From Anaeromyxobacter dehalogenans 2CP-C (GTDB taxonomy: Bacteria > Myxococcota > Myxococcia > Myxococcales > Anaeromyxobacteraceae), in NCBI RefSeq assembly GCF_000013385.1, contig NC_007760.1, positions 3,942,001 through 4,006,000 on the forward strand: DNA of 64,000 bases, read 5' to 3'. Made by a program: the position numbers and the translations under genes. Positions 38,129 through 45,520 of the stretch are shown here, piece by piece. Below the pieces are notes generated by a model that was not told the DNA's origin, made no database searches, and was given only the letters and a program-made list of their open reading frames with translations. Positions within the stretch are counted from its first letter, which is position 1; each line of letters starts with the position of its first letter.

Positions 38129-38157
38129 TTGACGGGTCCCTGCGCCTCCGCTACTCC
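38129..38157 (+). promoter_or_regulatory. Promoter of the B12-uptake operon
   Basis: TTGACG (38129-38134), 17 bases, then TACTCC (38152-38157). Transcription would start near 38164, at the beginning of the cobalamin riboswitch. Confidence 0.5.
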
Positions 38158-38162
38158 GGGGA

Positions 38163-38345
38163 AGCTTTTCGGCTCGGAGGAACAGGGAAGCCGGTCCAAG
38201 TCCGGCGCGGTCCCGCCACTGTAGCCGGGGTGAAGCACCCTCGAAGTCGTCGCCACTGCCGCGGATGCCGCGGCGGGAAGGTGGAGGGTGCCTGGCGGAG
38301 CGACGCTGCTCCGCGGCCCCGGAAGCCAGGAGACCTCCCTCCGGG
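38163..38345 (+). ncRNA. Cobalamin (AdoCbl-type) riboswitch
   Basis: The conserved blocks appear in order: GGAGGAACAGGGAAGCCGGT (38176-38195), AAGTCCGGCGCGGTCCCGCCACTGTA (38198-38223, given here as the run around GCCACTG), a second GCCACTG arm region, and the terminal GGAAGCCAGGAGACC (38321-38335, B12-box side). It directly precedes the TonB-dependent receptor gene, the classic target. High B12 should shut the operon off. Ends are approximate. Confidence 0.9.
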
Positions 38346-38403: not shown

Positions 38404-40410
38404 TTGGACTCGAGGCCTCCCCTCGGGCGGCGCGCGCGCGCGCTCGCCCTCGTCTTCTCCGCCGTGGTCGTCTGCGCCGGCGCCGGCCCCTTCGCCGCCG
38501 CGCGTGCCGACGACGCGCCGCCCGCCCCGGGCGACGCCGGTGCGCCCGACCCCGGCGCCGCGCCGGTCGAGCTCGACGAGCTCGTGATCCGCGTGCCCGG
38601 CGCCGAGGCGACGCGCGACCCCACCGGCGCGGTCACCGTGGTCGAGGCCGGCCGCTACGCCGGCGAGGCCAAGGCGGTCGCCGAGCTGGTCGCCACCGCG
38701 CCCGGCGTGGCGGTGAGCGCGTACGGCGGCCTCGGCCAGCTCTCCACCGTGTCCATCCGCGGCTCGAGCGCGAGCGGCGTGCTCGTGCTGCTCGACGGCC
38801 TGCCGCTCAACACGGCGTTCGGGGGCGGCGTGGACCTGTCCACGCTGCCGCGCCAGTGGATCGAGCGCATCGAGGTGCTGCGCGGCGCCGAGGGGGCGCA
38901 CTACGGCGCGGGCGCGCTGGGCGGGGTCGTGAACGTGGTCACGCGCGGCGGCGAGCCGGGGCGCTGGTCGGCCGAGGCGAGCGGCGGCTCGTTCGGCACC
39001 GCCGCGGCCTCGGCCGAGGCGGCGGCCGGCGGGGAGCGCTGGACCTTGTTCGGCGCGGCGGGCGCGGAGCGGAGCGACGGCGACTTCACCTACCGGAAGC
39101 GCCCGCAGAGCTCGCTGCCCGGCAGCCCGTACCAGACGTTCACGCGCGAGAACAACGGCAGCGCGCGCGGCGGCGGGATCGCGAAGCTCACCGCCCGCCT
39201 CGGCGAGCGCCGGCTGGACGCGCTGCTGCAGCTCTCCGGCGGCCGCCGGGAGCTGGCCGGGTGGCCCGGCAACGACACCCCCGACGACTGGCAGCGCGAC
39301 GCCCGGGCGCTCCTGTCGGTCCGGCTGTCCGGCCCCGGCCCCGCGCCCGGGCTCACCCTCGGCGCGCGCCTCACCGGGCGCGCCGACCTGCTCGACACGC
39401 GCATCGGGAGCCTGTCCGGCGGCGACCCGGTGCACCAGCGCGGCGGCGCCGCCGGCGCGGAGGCCGAGGCGGTGCTGCTCCACCGGCACGGCGCGCTCCG
39501 GGCCGCACTGGGCGCCGACGGGGAGGCGCTCCGCGCCGACGGCCTGGGCGACCCGCGGACGCGCGCGCAGCTGTCCGCCACGCTCTCCGAGGACGCCCGC
39601 CTCGCCGCCGGCCGGGTGCGGCTCTCGCCGGCGGTGCGCGCCGAGCGGGTGGGCCCGTTCGACGGGCTCTCCGCGAAGCTCGGCGGGAGCGTGCGCCTGC
39701 TCGGGCCGCTCGCGGCGCGCGCCAGCGCCGGCCGCACCTTCCGCGCCCCCGGCTTCGCGGAGCTCTACCTGCAGCAGGGCGGCGCGCTGCCCAACCCGTC
39801 GCTCCGCCCCGAGACCGGCCTCTCCGCCGACGCGGCGCTGGTCGCGGAGGGCGCGCGCGGCATGGCGAGCGTGGGCGGCCACCTCACGCGCTACGAGGAC
39901 CTGATCGTCTACCAGGCCAGCGCGCTCGGCCGGATGAAGCCGTTCAACACCGGCCGCGCCCGGGTCGCCGGCCTGGAGGTCGAGGCCGCCACCGCGCCCG
40001 CGCCGCGCCTGCTCGGCCTGGCGCTGGGCGCCGCGTACACGTACCTGCGCACCGAGACGCTGCGCGGCGAGGCGGCCGAGGTGGGCCGGGACCTGCCGTT
40101 CCGCCCGCGCCACCGCCTGTTCGCGCGCGCCGCGATCGCCCCCGGGCCGGCCGAGGCCCACCTCGAGGCCCACTACGTGGGCGCGCAGTGGCGGGACGCG
40201 CGCAACGCGGACCGCGTCGCCGAGGCGCTGCTCTGGAACGCGGGCGCCTCGGTGCGCCTCGCCCGCCGCGCCGGGCTGCGGCTCGGGCTGGAGGCGCGCA
40301 ACCTGCTCGACGACCGCACGCTGACGGACCCCATCGGAAACCCGCTTCCCGGCCGCATGGTGATGGTCACCCTGCGCGCCGGCTCGACCCCAGGAGACCC
40401 CACCCCATGA
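38404..40410 (+). CDS. btuB: TonB-dependent outer-membrane receptor, probable cobalamin receptor
   Basis: 668 residues starting with TTG, 10 bases after AAGGAG. A signal peptide (about 1-36) is followed by a plug domain at about 75-180 (LVATAPGVAVSAYGGLGQLSTVSIRGSSASGVLVLLDGLPLN...GAEGAHYGAGALGGVVNVVTR). The beta-barrel ends in ARNLLDDRTLTDPIGNPLPGRMVMVTL. B12 specificity follows from the riboswitch directly upstream and from btuFCD downstream. The stop overlaps the next ATG (ATGA at 40407). Confidence 0.88.
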   Translation: MDSRPPLGRRARALALVFSAVVVCAGAGPFAAARADDAPPAPGDAGAPDPGAAPVELDELVIRVPGAEATRDPTGAVTVVEAGRYAGEAKAVAELVATAPGVAVSAYGGLGQLSTVSIRGSSASGVLVLLDGLPLNTAFGGGVDLSTLPRQWIERIEVLRGAEGAHYGAGALGGVVNVVTRGGEPGRWSAEASGGSFGTAAASAEAAAGGERWTLFGAAGAERSDGDFTYRKRPQSSLPGSPYQTFTRENNGSARGGGIAKLTARLGERRLDALLQLSGGRRELAGWPGNDTPDDWQRDARALLSVRLSGPGPAPGLTLGARLTGRADLLDTRIGSLSGGDPVHQRGGAAGAEAEAVLLHRHGALRAALGADGEALRADGLGDPRTRAQLSATLSEDARLAAGRVRLSPAVRAERVGPFDGLSAKLGGSVRLLGPLAARASAGRTFRAPGFAELYLQQGGALPNPSLRPETGLSADAALVAEGARGMASVGGHLTRYEDLIVYQASALGRMKPFNTGRARVAGLEVEAATAPAPRLLGLALGAAYTYLRTETLRGEAAEVGRDLPFRPRHRLFARAAIAPGPAEAHLEAHYVGAQWRDARNADRVAEALLWNAGASVRLARRAGLRLGLEARNLLDDRTLTDPIGNPLPGRMVMVTLRAGSTPGDPTP

Positions 40411-41855
40411 TCCGGATCCCCCTCCCCGCCCTCCGGGCGGCCCTCGCCGCGGCGGCGCTCGCGCTCGCGGCCTGCAGCAGCGACCCCGAGATCGTCTGCG
40501 CCGCCGGCGAGCAGGTCTGCGGCGGCGCCTGCACCTCGGTCGAGATCGACTCCTCGAACTGCGGCGCGTGCGGCGCGGCCTGCGGCGCGTACCAGGAGTG
40601 CAACGCGGGCGCGTGCGAGTGCGGGCCCGGCACGGTCGAGTGCGGCGGCGGCTGCGTGGACCTCGCGTCGGATCCCGGGAGCTGCGGCGCCTGCGGCCAC
40701 GCCTGCGGCACGGGCCAGGTCTGCGCCGGCGGCACCTGCGCCAGCGCCTGCCCGGCCGGGCTGCTGTCCTGCGGCGGCGCGTGCGCGGACCCGTCGTCGG
40801 ACCGCTGGAACTGCGGCGCGTGCGGGGTGCGCTGCGACCGCGGCGAGAGCTGCCGCGAGGGCGCGTGCCGGCCGGACGTGTACGTGGCCTGCTTCGCGAC
40901 CGACGACGTGCGCCCGGCGAACGCCGCGCTGCGCGGCGGCCTGCCCCGCGCGGCCGGCGACGGCCCCATCGCGCTGGGCGTGGCGGCCGGCCGGCTCTGG
41001 GCCGCGGCCTCGCTCTCGCACTCGCTCGTGTCCTTCCCGCTCGACCTCGGCGCGGCCGGCGTCGAGACGGTGCTGGGCGGCGGCGACCTCGAGGCGCTCT
41101 CCGTCAGCGGCGACCGCCTGTGGGTCGCGAACGCGGCCGCCGGGTCGCTGGTGGTGTACGACGCCGCCGCGCGGCGCGTGGTGGACGAGGTCGTCCTCGG
41201 AACGACCGGCGTGAACCCGCGCTGGGTGGCGTTCGCGAGCGGCCGCGCCTACGCGGCGCTGTACGGCCTCGACGCGGCGTCGGGCGGCCAGGAGGTGGCG
41301 GTGATCGACCTCGCGACCGGCGGGATCGTCCGGCGCATCGACCTGCGCGCGCTCGCCGACGCCCCCGGCCTCCCCTTCCCGTCCCACGCCGTGGTGGCGG
41401 GCGGCCGCGTGTACGTCACGCTGGCCAACCTGCGCCTGGGCGAGTGGGGCTACTACACCGACCCGGCGGGCAGCGGGAAGCTGGCGGTCATCGACCCGGC
41501 GGCGGACGACGCGCTCACCTCCATCGACCTGGGCGACGGCTGCCTGAACGCGGGCGGCCTGGCCGCGAGCGCCGACGGGCGGATGCTGTGGGTGGCGTGC
41601 GGCGGGAGCGCCGCGGTGCTGCCGGTGGAGCTCGGCGACGCCGGCGCGACGCTGCACGCCCCGGTGGCCGCGCCGGACTTCTCGGCCCCGGGTAACATCG
41701 CGCTGTGCGGCGGGACTGCCTACGTCACCGATCAGTGGTCCGGCTCGGTGTGGCGCTTCGATCCTTCCACCGGCGAGCGCCTCGCCGCCGGCGAGATCTG
41801 CCCGGCCAGCCAGGCGGGGTGGGCCTGGGCCGCGGACGTCGCGTGCGCGCCGTAG
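40407..41855 (+). CDS. Cys-rich beta-propeller lipoprotein in the B12-uptake operon (BtuG-like candidate)
   Basis: 482 residues. The type II signal ends at lipobox LAAC (C23). Residues 31-154 hold three tandem Cys modules of about 38 residues, each with the core CGG.C......NCGACG..C.......C....C. Residues about 160-482 form a YncE-like propeller, with blades such as LWVANAAAGSLVVYDAAARRVV, RAYAALYGL and AYVTDQWSGSVWRFDPSTGERL. It is coupled by 4- and 13-base overlaps to btuB and btuF. In Bacteroides, BtuG is a surface propeller lipoprotein that hands B12 to BtuB; position and architecture suggest an analogue here. That role is inference. Confidence 0.75.
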   Translation: MIRIPLPALRAALAAAALALAACSSDPEIVCAAGEQVCGGACTSVEIDSSNCGACGAACGAYQECNAGACECGPGTVECGGGCVDLASDPGSCGACGHACGTGQVCAGGTCASACPAGLLSCGGACADPSSDRWNCGACGVRCDRGESCREGACRPDVYVACFATDDVRPANAALRGGLPRAAGDGPIALGVAAGRLWAAASLSHSLVSFPLDLGAAGVETVLGGGDLEALSVSGDRLWVANAAAGSLVVYDAAARRVVDEVVLGTTGVNPRWVAFASGRAYAALYGLDAASGGQEVAVIDLATGGIVRRIDLRALADAPGLPFPSHAVVAGGRVYVTLANLRLGEWGYYTDPAGSGKLAVIDPAADDALTSIDLGDGCLNAGGLAASADGRMLWVACGGSAAVLPVELGDAGATLHAPVAAPDFSAPGNIALCGGTAYVTDQWSGSVWRFDPSTGERLAAGEICPASQAGWAWAADVACAP

Positions 41856-42757
41856 CCGCCGGGTGCGCCGCGCTGGCGCTCGCGCTGGCGGCGTCGGCCG
41901 CCCGCGCCGGCGGGGTCGCGGACCTGCTCCGCCCGAGCGGCCGCGGCGCCGCCGAGGGCGGGACGGTGTGGGCCGGGCCCCGGCCCGCCACGCCGCCCCG
42001 GCGCGTGGTGGTGCTCGCGCCCAGCCTCACCGACGTGGTGCTGGCGCTCGGCCTGGGCGACCGGCTGGTCGGCGTGACCCAGCTCGACGACGCGCCGGAG
42101 GTGCGGCACGTGCCGCGCGTGGGCGGCTTCATCGATCCGAACCCGGAGGTGATCCTGGGGCTCCGCCCCGACCTCGTGCTCTGGATCTCCGACGGCGGCG
42201 CGCTGGCCGCGGTGCGCCGGGTGGCCGAGCTCTCGCAGGCCTCGTCGCGCCCGTTCCCGGTGCTCGCGATCCCGGTGGTGAGCGTGGCCGACGTGCTCGC
42301 CACGCCGCGCATCGTGGGCGAGGCGCTGGGCGCGCCGGCGGCGGGGGCGCGGCTCTCCGCGGAGCTCGCGGCGGAGGTGGAGCGGGTGCGGACGCGGGCC
42401 GCGGCGCTGCCGCGCCGGCGCGCGCTGTTCCTGGTGGGCCGCGAGCCGCTGGTGGTGGCCGGACCGGGGAGCTTCCCGGACGAGCTGCTGCGCATCGCGG
42501 GCGCGGTGAACGTGGTGGGCGGCTCCCGGCCCTGGCCGGTGTTCCCGCTCGAGCGCGCGGTGGCGCTCGATCCGGAGGTGGTGGTGGACGGCGCGCCGCA
42601 GGAGCCGGCCGAGGGCATCGTCCGGCTCTCCGCGATCCCGGCGGTGCGGCGCGGCGCGGTGGTGCGGCTCCCCGACGACGCCCTGCTCCGCCCCGGGCCG
42701 CGGATGATCCGCGGGCTGGAGACGCTGTTCCGCGGGCTGCACCCGGAGGCGCGGTGA
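41843..42757 (+). CDS. btuF: Cobalamin ABC transporter, periplasmic binding protein
   Basis: 304 residues from the GTG at 41843, which lies inside the end of the propeller gene (13-base overlap). The signal peptide (about 1-22) is followed by a class III binding-protein fold: RVVVLAPSLTDVVLALGLGDRLVGVTQLDDAPEVRHVPRVGGFIDPNPEVILGLRPDLVLW, the BtuF/FhuD-type N-lobe. B12 specificity comes from operon context. Its stop overlaps the GTG of btuC. Confidence 0.88.
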   Translation: MRAVAAGCAALALALAASAARAGGVADLLRPSGRGAAEGGTVWAGPRPATPPRRVVVLAPSLTDVVLALGLGDRLVGVTQLDDAPEVRHVPRVGGFIDPNPEVILGLRPDLVLWISDGGALAAVRRVAELSQASSRPFPVLAIPVVSVADVLATPRIVGEALGAPAAGARLSAELAAEVERVRTRAAALPRRRALFLVGREPLVVAGPGSFPDELLRIAGAVNVVGGSRPWPVFPLERAVALDPEVVVDGAPQEPAEGIVRLSAIPAVRRGAVVRLPDDALLRPGPRMIRGLETLFRGLHPEAR

Positions 42758-43800
42758 GCCTCTCGCGCCGCACCCGGCTGGCGCTGGCGCTCGCCGCCGG
42801 CGCGCTCGCCATCGCGCTCGCCGTGGCGATCTCCTGCGCGCTCGGCCCGCAGCCCATCTCGTTCCGCGCCGCCTGGGCCGGCGCCGATCCCGACGCGGCC
42901 ATCCTGTTCGGCCTGCGCCTGCCGCGCGCCGTGCTCGCCGCGCTGGTGGGCTGCGCGCTCGCCGCCGCGGGGACCGCGCTCCAGGCGCTCCTGCGCAACC
43001 CGCTCGCGGAGCCGTTCGTGCTCGGCGTCTCCGGCGGCGCCGCGCTGGGCGGCTCGCTCGTCCTGGTCGCCGCCGCGGGCGTGACCCGGCTGGCGGGGCG
43101 CGCGGGCGAGGCGCTCGGTGGGGCGCCGCCGGTCGCGGCCGGCGCGGTGGCCGGGGCCGTCGCGGCGACCGCCATCGTGTTCGGGCTGGGCCGGATCGGC
43201 GGCCGCCTGGTGCCCGAGGCGGCGCTGCTGGTGGGCATCGTGTTCAACGCGTTCGCCGCCGGCGTCATCACCCTGCTCAAGATGCTCGTCCCGCCGGAGC
43301 AGGCCGGCCGGCTCATGTACTGGCTGCTCGGCGCGGTCGGCTACGAGGCGCCGGGGACGCTGGCGCTCGGCGCCGTGCTGGTGCTGCTGTCCGTGGGCGC
43401 GCTGGTGGCGCTCTCGGCGCGGCTCAACCTGCTCACGCTCGGCGACGAGGAGGCGGCCTCGCTCGGGCTCGACGTCCGGCGCGACCGGGCCGCGGTGTTC
43501 TTCGCGGCGAGCGCCGCCACCGGCGCGGCGGTGGCGCTCGCCGGGATGGTGGGGTTCGTGGGGCTCATCGTCCCGCACCTGGTCCGGCGCGTGGTCGGCC
43601 CCGACCACCGCCTGCTCGTGCCGGCCTCGGCGCTGTTCGGCGCCGCGTTCCTGGTGCTCGCCGACGCCCTGGCGCGCCTCGCGTTCCTGCCGCTCGGCAC
43701 CGAGCCGCCGGTGGGCGCGGTGACCGCGTTCCTGGGCGGCCCGTTCTTCCTGTGGCTGCTGCGGCGGACCGGGCGGCCCGAGGCGGAGGGCGCGCGATGA
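42754..43800 (+). CDS. btuC: Cobalamin ABC transporter, permease
   Basis: 348 residues of the FecCD/BtuC family, with about ten helices. Hallmarks: LRLPRAVLAALVGCALAAAGTALQALLRNPLAEPFVLGVSGGAALG near the N-terminus and GFVGLIVPHLVRRVVGPDHRLLVPASALFGAAFLVLADALAR near the C-terminus. It starts with GTG overlapping the btuF stop, and ends with ATGA overlap into btuD. Confidence 0.92.
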   Translation: MSLSRRTRLALALAAGALAIALAVAISCALGPQPISFRAAWAGADPDAAILFGLRLPRAVLAALVGCALAAAGTALQALLRNPLAEPFVLGVSGGAALGGSLVLVAAAGVTRLAGRAGEALGGAPPVAAGAVAGAVAATAIVFGLGRIGGRLVPEAALLVGIVFNAFAAGVITLLKMLVPPEQAGRLMYWLLGAVGYEAPGTLALGAVLVLLSVGALVALSARLNLLTLGDEEAASLGLDVRRDRAAVFFAASAATGAAVALAGMVGFVGLIVPHLVRRVVGPDHRLLVPASALFGAAFLVLADALARLAFLPLGTEPPVGAVTAFLGGPFFLWLLRRTGRPEAEGAR

Positions 43801-44606
43801 GCGGGCCGGCCGGCGGCGCGGCGGCGCCCATGGTCGAGGTGCGCGGGGTCACGTTCCGCTACGGCGCGCGTGCGGCGCTCGAGGACGTGTCGTTCTCCGC
43901 GCGCGAGGGCGAGTTCGTCGGGCTGCTCGGGCCGAACGGCGCCGGGAAGTCCACGCTCGTCCGGCTCATCGCCGGCCTGGCCGCGCCCGCGGAAGGCACG
44001 GTGCGCCTGACCGGGCTCGACCCGGCCGCCGCCCCGCGGCGCGCGGTGGCGCAGGTGTGCGCGCTCGTCCCGCAGGAGCCGCGGCTGACCTGGCCATTCA
44101 CCGTCCGTGACGCCGTGATGATGGGCCGGGCGCCGCGGCAGGGGCTGCTGGCGGTGCCCTCCCGCTTCGACCACGGCGCCGTGCAGGGGGCGCTCGAGGC
44201 GTGCGACCTCGTGCACCTGGCCGGCCGCCGCCTCGACGCGCTCTCCGGCGGCGAGCGGCGCCGGGTGTTCTTCGCCCGCGCCCTCGCGCAGGAGCCCCGG
44301 GTGCTGCTGCTCGACGAGCCCACCGCGTTCCTCGACCTCGGCCACCAGGTGGCCGCCATGCGGATGGCCCGCGTGGCCGCGCGCGGCGGGCTGTGCGTGG
44401 TGGCGGTGCTCCACGATCTCAACCTCGCCGCCGCCGCGTGCGACCGCCTGGTGGTGCTCTCGCGCGGCCGCGTGGTCGCCGAGGGAGCGCCGGACGAGGT
44501 GATCACGGCCGAGCGGGTGCGCGAGGTGTGGGAGGTGCCGGTGTGGCGCGGGGAGAACGGCGTCACGGGCGCGCCGGTGGTGTTGCCGGTGCTGAAGCGG
44601 GAGTGA
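43797..44606 (+). CDS. btuD: Cobalamin ABC transporter, ATPase
   Basis: 269 residues. Walker A is GPNGAGKST (45-53), the signature LSGGERRRVFFARAL, Walker B VLLLDEPTAFLDL, and the switch His in VLHDLNLA. This composition is that of BtuD/FhuC-type ATPases. It ends the five-gene operon. The next 455 bases contain no clear gene. Confidence 0.92.
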   Translation: MSGPAGGAAAPMVEVRGVTFRYGARAALEDVSFSAREGEFVGLLGPNGAGKSTLVRLIAGLAAPAEGTVRLTGLDPAAAPRRAVAQVCALVPQEPRLTWPFTVRDAVMMGRAPRQGLLAVPSRFDHGAVQGALEACDLVHLAGRRLDALSGGERRRVFFARALAQEPRVLLLDEPTAFLDLGHQVAAMRMARVAARGGLCVVAVLHDLNLAAAACDRLVVLSRGRVVAEGAPDEVITAERVREVWEVPVWRGENGVTGAPVVLPVLKRE

Positions 44607-44748: not shown

Positions 44749-44938
44749 CGTTTGCGGCCCACCGGGAACGCTCTGGCAACTTGACGGGGGTCGCGCGGGG
44801 CGCGGTGGTCGCGAGCGGGATCGCTGGGGCGCCGGGGCCTGGTGCGCTCGCTGGGCGCCCGTTCGGGTCGCTGCGCCTGCTGCGGCTTCGGTGGCCGGGT
44901 CCGCCGTTGCCGCGTCGCCTTCCGCGGCTCCGCACCTC

Positions 44939-44960
44939 GCGTTTCATGCGCATGAAACGC
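44939..44960. promoter_or_regulatory. 22-bp perfect palindrome upstream of the HNH gene
   Basis: The half-site GCGTTTCATGC is followed directly by its reverse complement GCATGAAACGC. It is AT-richer than its surroundings and lies 101 bases before the ATG at 45062. This is likely a site for a dimeric protein. Confidence 0.5.
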
Positions 44961-44972
44961 CGCCGCCCTCCT

Positions 44973-45005
44973 CCGCTCGCAGTGAGCCTGTCGAACTGCG
45001 AGCGG
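44973..45005. repeat. 11-bp-arm inverted repeat, dispersed-element type
   Basis: CCGCTCGCAGT (44973-44983) and ACTGCGAGCGG (44995-45005) are perfect arms around an 11-base loop containing GAGCCTGTCGA, a core often found in dispersed intergenic repeats. It immediately precedes the HNH gene region. Confidence 0.5.
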
Positions 45006-45061
45006 CGGGCCCCGCCCCGAAGCCCAGCTCCGTCGACTGGCTCGACGGCGAGCAGGCTCGG

Positions 45062-45520
45062 ATGCACCTCACCGTCTCGAAGGCCTTCTTGAAGAAGCTC
45101 GACGCGGCCCGGGACGCCCTGTCCCACGCCCTGCCGGGCGCGTCGCGCGAGAAGGTCCTCGAAGCGGCGCTCGACCTGCTCATCGCCGAGCGCGACCGGC
45201 GCAAGGGGCTTACCGCTCGCCCGCAGAAGAACGTTCGCCCGTCGAAGCCGGACCACATCCCTGCCCACGTGCGCCGCGAGGTCTGGAAGCGGGACGGCGG
45301 GCGGTGCACCTTCGTCCTCGCGTCCGGGGAGCGATGCGGCTCCACCCACCGGCTCGAGATCGACCACATCGCGGCGCGGGCGCTCGGCGGGCCCTCCACG
45401 GCGGACAACCTCCGGATCCACTGCAAGGGCCACAACCTCGCGGAGGCGCGGCGGGTCTTCGGGGACGCGCTGATCGATGCGTACGCGCCGCAGCGACGCG
45501 GCGATCAGTTGAACATGTAG
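45062..45520 (+). CDS. HNH endonuclease-domain protein, possibly a truncated family member
   Basis: 152 residues from the ATG at 45062. Residues about 1-60 form a helical lead (MHLTVSKAFLKKLDAARDALSHALPG...). The HNH domain follows at about 75-140: HVRREVWKRDGGRCTFVLASGERCGSTHRLEIDHIAARALGGPSTADNLRIHCKGHNLAEAR, with two Cys and the DH...N...H pattern. Related genomic HNH proteins usually have a long N-terminal region that is missing here; an upstream in-frame extension to 44891 crosses two palindromes and looks non-coding. The target is unknown. Confidence 0.7.
   Translation: MHLTVSKAFLKKLDAARDALSHALPGASREKVLEAALDLLIAERDRRKGLTARPQKNVRPSKPDHIPAHVRREVWKRDGGRCTFVLASGERCGSTHRLEIDHIAARALGGPSTADNLRIHCKGHNLAEARRVFGDALIDAYAPQRRGDQLNM

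Follow-up and report, generated by a model that had tools for sequence, protein, structure and literature searches.

The closest described counterparts of the protein reported here are the BtuG proteins of B. theta (BtuG1-3; 3DSM, 8BLW and 8OKV), lipoproteins with a seven-bladed beta-propeller that are encoded beside btuB (PMC6143338, PMC10404256). In B. theta, B12 is bound on the negatively charged face of the propeller, which caps BtuB, and a loop of BtuB dislodges the vitamin from BtuG on closing; a net charge of -18 has been reported for BtuG2 (PMC10404256). The lipoprotein export signal (LES) of Bacteroidota is specific to that phylum (PMC6143338). Both founding papers describe BtuG, or lipoprotein-capped transporters, as exclusive to Bacteroidetes, and no report of a BtuG-like protein in Myxococcota was found in the open-access literature. 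The assignment of BtuG to the Pfam family DUF5074 made here rests on PMC13398666, in which the neighbouring propeller domain is given as PF16819.

Another system to be considered is YncE of E. coli, likewise a seven-bladed propeller of the YVTN type encoded near a TonB-dependent receptor, and structurally close to the protein described below. The receptor is the PQQ transporter YncD/PqqU, and YncE is not known to be a lipoprotein. Unlike the gene studied here, yncE lies outside a B12 operon.

The btu operon of A. dehalogenans

The window analyzed here, a stretch of 64,000 bases, belongs to a complete genome of 5,013,479 bases. Its B12-uptake operon is headed by a cobalamin riboswitch and runs from btuB through the propeller lipoprotein gene to btuF, btuC and btuD (Table 1), with successive overlaps of 4, 13, 4 and 4 bases. 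The original prediction had placed the propeller gene between btuB and btuF, coupled to them by overlaps of 4 and 13 bases and under a cobalamin riboswitch, and both the gene coordinates and the cmscan match agree with it. BtuB, BtuF, BtuC and BtuD were each identified by Pfam or NCBIfam models; several equivalog scores fell below their cut-offs, as is expected for so distant a phylum. An HNH-endonuclease-like gene (PF01844) lies just 3' of btuD, at window positions 44891-45520.

A review places A. dehalogenans among the salvagers of cobamides, as a species that can neither make nor remodel them (PMC11321594). A search of six genomes, that of A. dehalogenans among them, turned up MetH and no CbiC. 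The species therefore depends on uptake, and efficient uptake should matter to it.

Table 1. Features of the btu operon and of the propeller lipoprotein, in positions of the window.
Feature	Position	Strand	Evidence
Cobalamin riboswitch RF00174, operon head	38155..38336	+	cmscan 73.7 bits, E 2.8e-16
btuB, TonB-dependent receptor	38404..40410	+	PF00593, PF07715; TIGR01779 E 3.8e-42 (below cut-off); E. coli BtuB is the closest solved relative
BtuG-like propeller lipoprotein gene, 482 aa	40407..41855	+	ATG 40407-40409, stop ends 41855
Signal peptide and lipobox, residues 1-23 (...LAAC23)	40407..40475	+	Sequence; lipobox in homologues examined
Three Cys-rich modules, residues 31-154, probable stalk	40497..40868	+	NF041328 / Stig1; missing from many homologues
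Seven-bladed beta-propeller, residues 158-482	40878..41852	+	AlphaFold pLDDT mostly >90; PDB profile and fold matches
btuF, periplasmic B12-binding protein, GTG start 41843	41843..42757	+	PF01497; NF002894 E 8e-20 (below cut-off)
btuC, permease	42754..43800	+	PF01032; BtuC models E 7e-63
btuD, ATPase	43797..44606	+	PF00005; corrinoid ABC ATPase E 1.5e-75

Domains and predicted fold of the propeller lipoprotein

The lipobox cysteine Cys23 is invariant in an alignment of 37 homologues (A1), so that the lipoprotein feature of BtuG is shared. The same alignment served as input to an AlphaFold model of the 482-residue protein (mean pLDDT 92.3, pTM 0.88), in which a seven-bladed propeller extends from about residue 158 to 482 and its last blade is completed, judging from the strand order, by the N-terminal strands. 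Cys23 and this confident model bear out the earlier description of the product as a lipoprotein with a YncE-like beta-propeller. From a single sequence the propeller is nearly invisible to Pfam (best E 0.015), and a PDB search with the single sequence gave no useful match. The net charge of the propeller is -15. Its most conserved residues include the BC loops of blades 3 and 4 (285-287 and 339-357), but conservation shows only a weak bias towards the DA/BC face (p 0.026, a test in which the residues are not independent of one another).

The Cys-rich part is strongly matched at residues 13-155 by NF041328, "MXAN_6577-like cysteine-rich protein" (E 3.5e-45, 153.5 bits vs a cut-off of 100), as it is in all 37 aligned members, and is also read as three Pfam Stig1 stretches. 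The NF041328 model covers the Cys-rich part only and gives no function; the propeller and the link to B12 are undescribed in it. Such modules are common in other myxobacterial proteins, several Anaeromyxobacteraceae homologues have a single one, and none was detected in the families with permuted propellers described below. The part is a generic, dispensable myxobacterial module and probably an optional stalk, the latter role being inferred. The original prediction was right in placing three Cys-rich modules ahead of the propeller; one correction is that, as a generic module that many homologues lack, they are decoration rather than the B12 device.

Circular permutation of the propeller

At fifteen loci the matches to the two parts of the propeller profile have changed places; permuted btuB-linked propellers were seen at L143-L150 and L158-L164. 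Rotating the sequence raised the single-domain score from 110 to 203 in L149, 68 to 129 in L163, 109 to 162 in L148, 76 to 125 in L159 and 118 to 139 in L143, and hardly raised it in L146, L150 and L161. Landmark motifs are shifted bodily in the permuted forms, such as NL..PAGPG, which lies near the N terminus in the permuted relatives grouped as A4. The matches start in four registers, near profile positions 3, 42, 160-178 and 229, and on this sequence evidence the propeller has at least four registers that are related by circular permutation. The permuted protein of L149 was again modelled as a propeller (pLDDT 80.8). Among the matches listed it is closest in structure to E. coli YncE (VIA-align Z 35), and no BtuG was among the 50 structural matches listed.

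Comparison with BtuG

Failure of the propeller to match BtuG-like folds would have refuted the original prediction. In a Foldseek search of the PDB the top match was 1l0q, a YVTN surface-layer protein from an archaeon, and BtuG1-3 of B. theta with 3DSM took ranks 2-4, 6-12, 14-16, 18, 19 and 21, so that the expected likeness is there from rank 2 onwards; other seven-bladed propellers match too. Fold alone is not decisive, since VIA-align gave BtuG a Z of about 31, tied with unrelated seven-bladed propellers. The Foldseek ranking was rejected as proof of homology in view of this tie and of the absence of BtuG from the matches listed for the permuted model.

Sequence profiles discriminated further. 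Against the PDB, a propeller-only profile (A2) found 1l0q (1.8e-13), then BtuG1 (1.1e-9), with YncE more weakly matched (6e-4); the A4 profile had BtuG1 as its top match (9e-6) and also found BtuG3 (0.002), and a profile of a third register (A5) found 1l0q and then only BtuG1 (2.6e-5). A control YVTN propeller from a myxobacterium, not beside btuB, found 1l0q, hydrazine synthase and YncE, and no BtuG up to E 0.1 (one control, single-sequence search, which falls short of proof). These matches are to be read with the reservation that repeats blur homology and that 1l0q outranks BtuG1 in two of the three profiles. DUF5074 (PF16819) had no match in the gene product and matched one of the 37 homologues, at E 0.026. 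It was rejected as a family label, being unmatched by the propeller; the DUF5074 matches in the genomes belong to other genes.

The myxobacterial protein thus shares with BtuG the lipid anchor, the seven-bladed propeller and the btuB neighbour, as well as loci with cobalamin riboswitches, a net negative charge and occurrence in almost all btuB operons of the respective phylum. It differs in belonging to another phylum, in an identity of only 10-17%, in falling outside DUF5074, in the three Cys-rich modules that come first, in the other blade registers of many relatives, in the lack of an LES and in a BtuB partner of E. coli-like affinity. This BtuB scored 97.5 bits with E. coli BtuB vs 63.6, 54.7 and 31.7 bits with BtuB3, BtuB2 and BtuB1 of B. 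theta; an ancestral BtuBG pair shared by both phyla is therefore not indicated, and the sequences favour separate recruitment or a very old divergence over transfer of the pair. No surface-export signal of a known kind was recognisable in the propeller lipoprotein, and we know of no surface-export rule for lipoproteins of Myxococcota. An acidic residue after the lipidated cysteine was considered as such a signal and rejected; it occurs in 28 of 41 proteins overall, frequently in stalked forms and rarely in permuted ones.

Linkage of the propeller to btuB across Myxococcota

The survey comprised 146 genomes of Myxococcota, 126 of them good, and the propeller profile matched in 108 (100 of the good ones). 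A BtuB profile at E 1e-75 gave 120 places in 108 genomes, in 114 of which the propeller lies directly 3' of the btuB-like gene, on the same strand and at most 1.1 kb away. Five of the remaining six (L173-L177) have a divergent propeller behind btuB (E 2e-18 to 2e-8), and the sixth (L178) ends at a contig edge; all 119 places that can be tested, which span many families, thus have a propeller downstream of btuB. Absence of the gene from homologous B12 operons, which would likewise have spoken against the original prediction, was not encountered: it is present in essentially all. The order btuB-propeller-btuF recurs throughout Myxococcota and is therefore not a matter of chance. The homologues examined are lipoproteins by their lipobox, and the start of the propeller gene overlaps the btuB stop by 4 bases in 22 of 39 cases.

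A cobalamin riboswitch was detected upstream in 52 of the 59 loci scanned. The seven without it are four second-copy cassettes (L068, L069, L090 and L171), one locus at a contig edge (L144), L154 and L165. The propellers of L174-L177, which come from Myxococcota of orders other than that of the window, are very divergent lipoproteins that scarcely match the profile. At L169:7053-9775 a stalked propeller is followed by btuC, and no btuB could be recognised upstream of it within the 16.7 kb read. A search of plasmids for relatives of the propeller found none.

Second cassettes and paired inheritance

A second btuB-propeller pair, lacking both a riboswitch and btuFCD, lies at C1:393506-396834 in the genome of A. 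dehalogenans. Two proteins directly upstream of it match the reductive dehalogenase model TIGR02486 (E about 1e-38, below cut-off), and a sigma-54 regulator with XylR_N lies downstream; the dehalogenase-linked arrangement is conserved in another genome (G036). Pfam Dehalogenase (PF13486) had no match, but the controls gave none either. Reductive dehalogenases are corrinoid enzymes, and the second cassette, adjoining genes that resemble them, hence provides an independent corrinoid context. In both genomes btuF and btuCD are missing from this cassette within the stretch read, which leaves btuB as the constant partner of the propeller. Dehalogenase-adjacent second cassettes outside the window were recorded as L068 (G000:C1:388000-404000) and L108:14337-16358.

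In Myxococcaceae, the second copies L090, L171, L104 and L106 group with one another in BtuB as well as in the propeller, and not with the main copies L089 and L091 of the same genomes. Since the paralogous cassettes co-cluster in both genes, btuB and the propeller travel as a pair. L090 and L171 were scanned and had no cobalamin riboswitch (L104 and L106 were outside the scan). A correlation of BtuB and propeller distances (r 0.88) was set aside as evidence of pairing, because that of BtuB and BtuC is just as high (0.92) and the correlation mostly reflects species history; only the pairing of paralogues is used here.

Proposed function and alternative explanations

By analogy with BtuG, the propeller of the outer-membrane lipoprotein would bind a corrinoid, dock on the co-encoded BtuB as a capture device or lid, and hand B12 over to it, after which BtuF and then BtuCD would carry the vitamin inward; the Cys-rich modules might form a stalk, stabilised by disulphide bonds, that links the lipid to the propeller. 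It is probable that the protein is such a BtuG-like capture or lid lipoprotein for BtuB outside Bacteroidota, with surface exposure, binding, docking, transfer and stalk all being inferred. Working like BtuG is the best reading, in the absence of data on B12 binding or surface exposure, and membership of the BtuG family is unproven. The interpretation of BtuG-like B12 capture that was originally put forward is supported as far as sequence alone can take it.

The default orientation of a lipoprotein in the outer membrane is towards the periplasm, and with its gene placed between btuB and btuF the protein could also support BtuB from inside or pass B12 from BtuB to BtuF; YncE and BamB of E. coli, both periplasmic propellers, match the permuted model. 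We consider this unlikely, as BtuF to our knowledge normally needs no helper and the second cassettes of A. dehalogenans and G036 keep btuB and the propeller without btuF or btuCD in the stretch read. The fold does not settle the ligand either: BtuG and YncE cannot be separated by structure alone and many ligands are bound by seven-bladed propellers, which leaves room for a surface or periplasmic accessory of BtuB with another job, directed at a B12-carrying protein or some other ligand, as in the YncE/PqqU neighbourhood. The riboswitch (present in 52 of the 59 loci scanned), the cassette beside the dehalogenase-like genes and the profiles that rank BtuG point to corrinoids instead and render such a job quite improbable. 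Finally, propeller and Stig1-module proteins are numerous in myxobacteria, and a generic YVTN-type surface lipoprotein might have entered the operon fortuitously or for reasons to do with the envelope, an explanation very hard to reconcile with a propeller behind btuB in every testable place and with the matched pairs of paralogues.

Extending the preferred reading of a BtuG-like lid, it is possible, although we hold it only tentatively, that Myxococcota evolved or inherited a phylum-wide lid-assisted B12 receptor separately from the BtuBG pair of Bacteroidota, that its propeller went through three or more circular permutations while its function stayed the same, and that in Anaeromyxobacter the receptor was duplicated to supply reductive dehalogenases with corrinoid. 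Lid-assisted scavenging of B12 may be far more widespread than gut Bacteroides, and a phylum-wide counterpart in predators and dehalogenators of soil and sediment would make the lid principle general and offer an unannotated candidate family of B12-binding proteins. The permuted registers, with or without a stalk, would represent a natural experiment on what is important in a BtuG-like lid. The same Cys-rich modules also occur in arrays at L003 and L005, on contigs that are binned as Methanomicrobiales archaea and are possibly misbinned.
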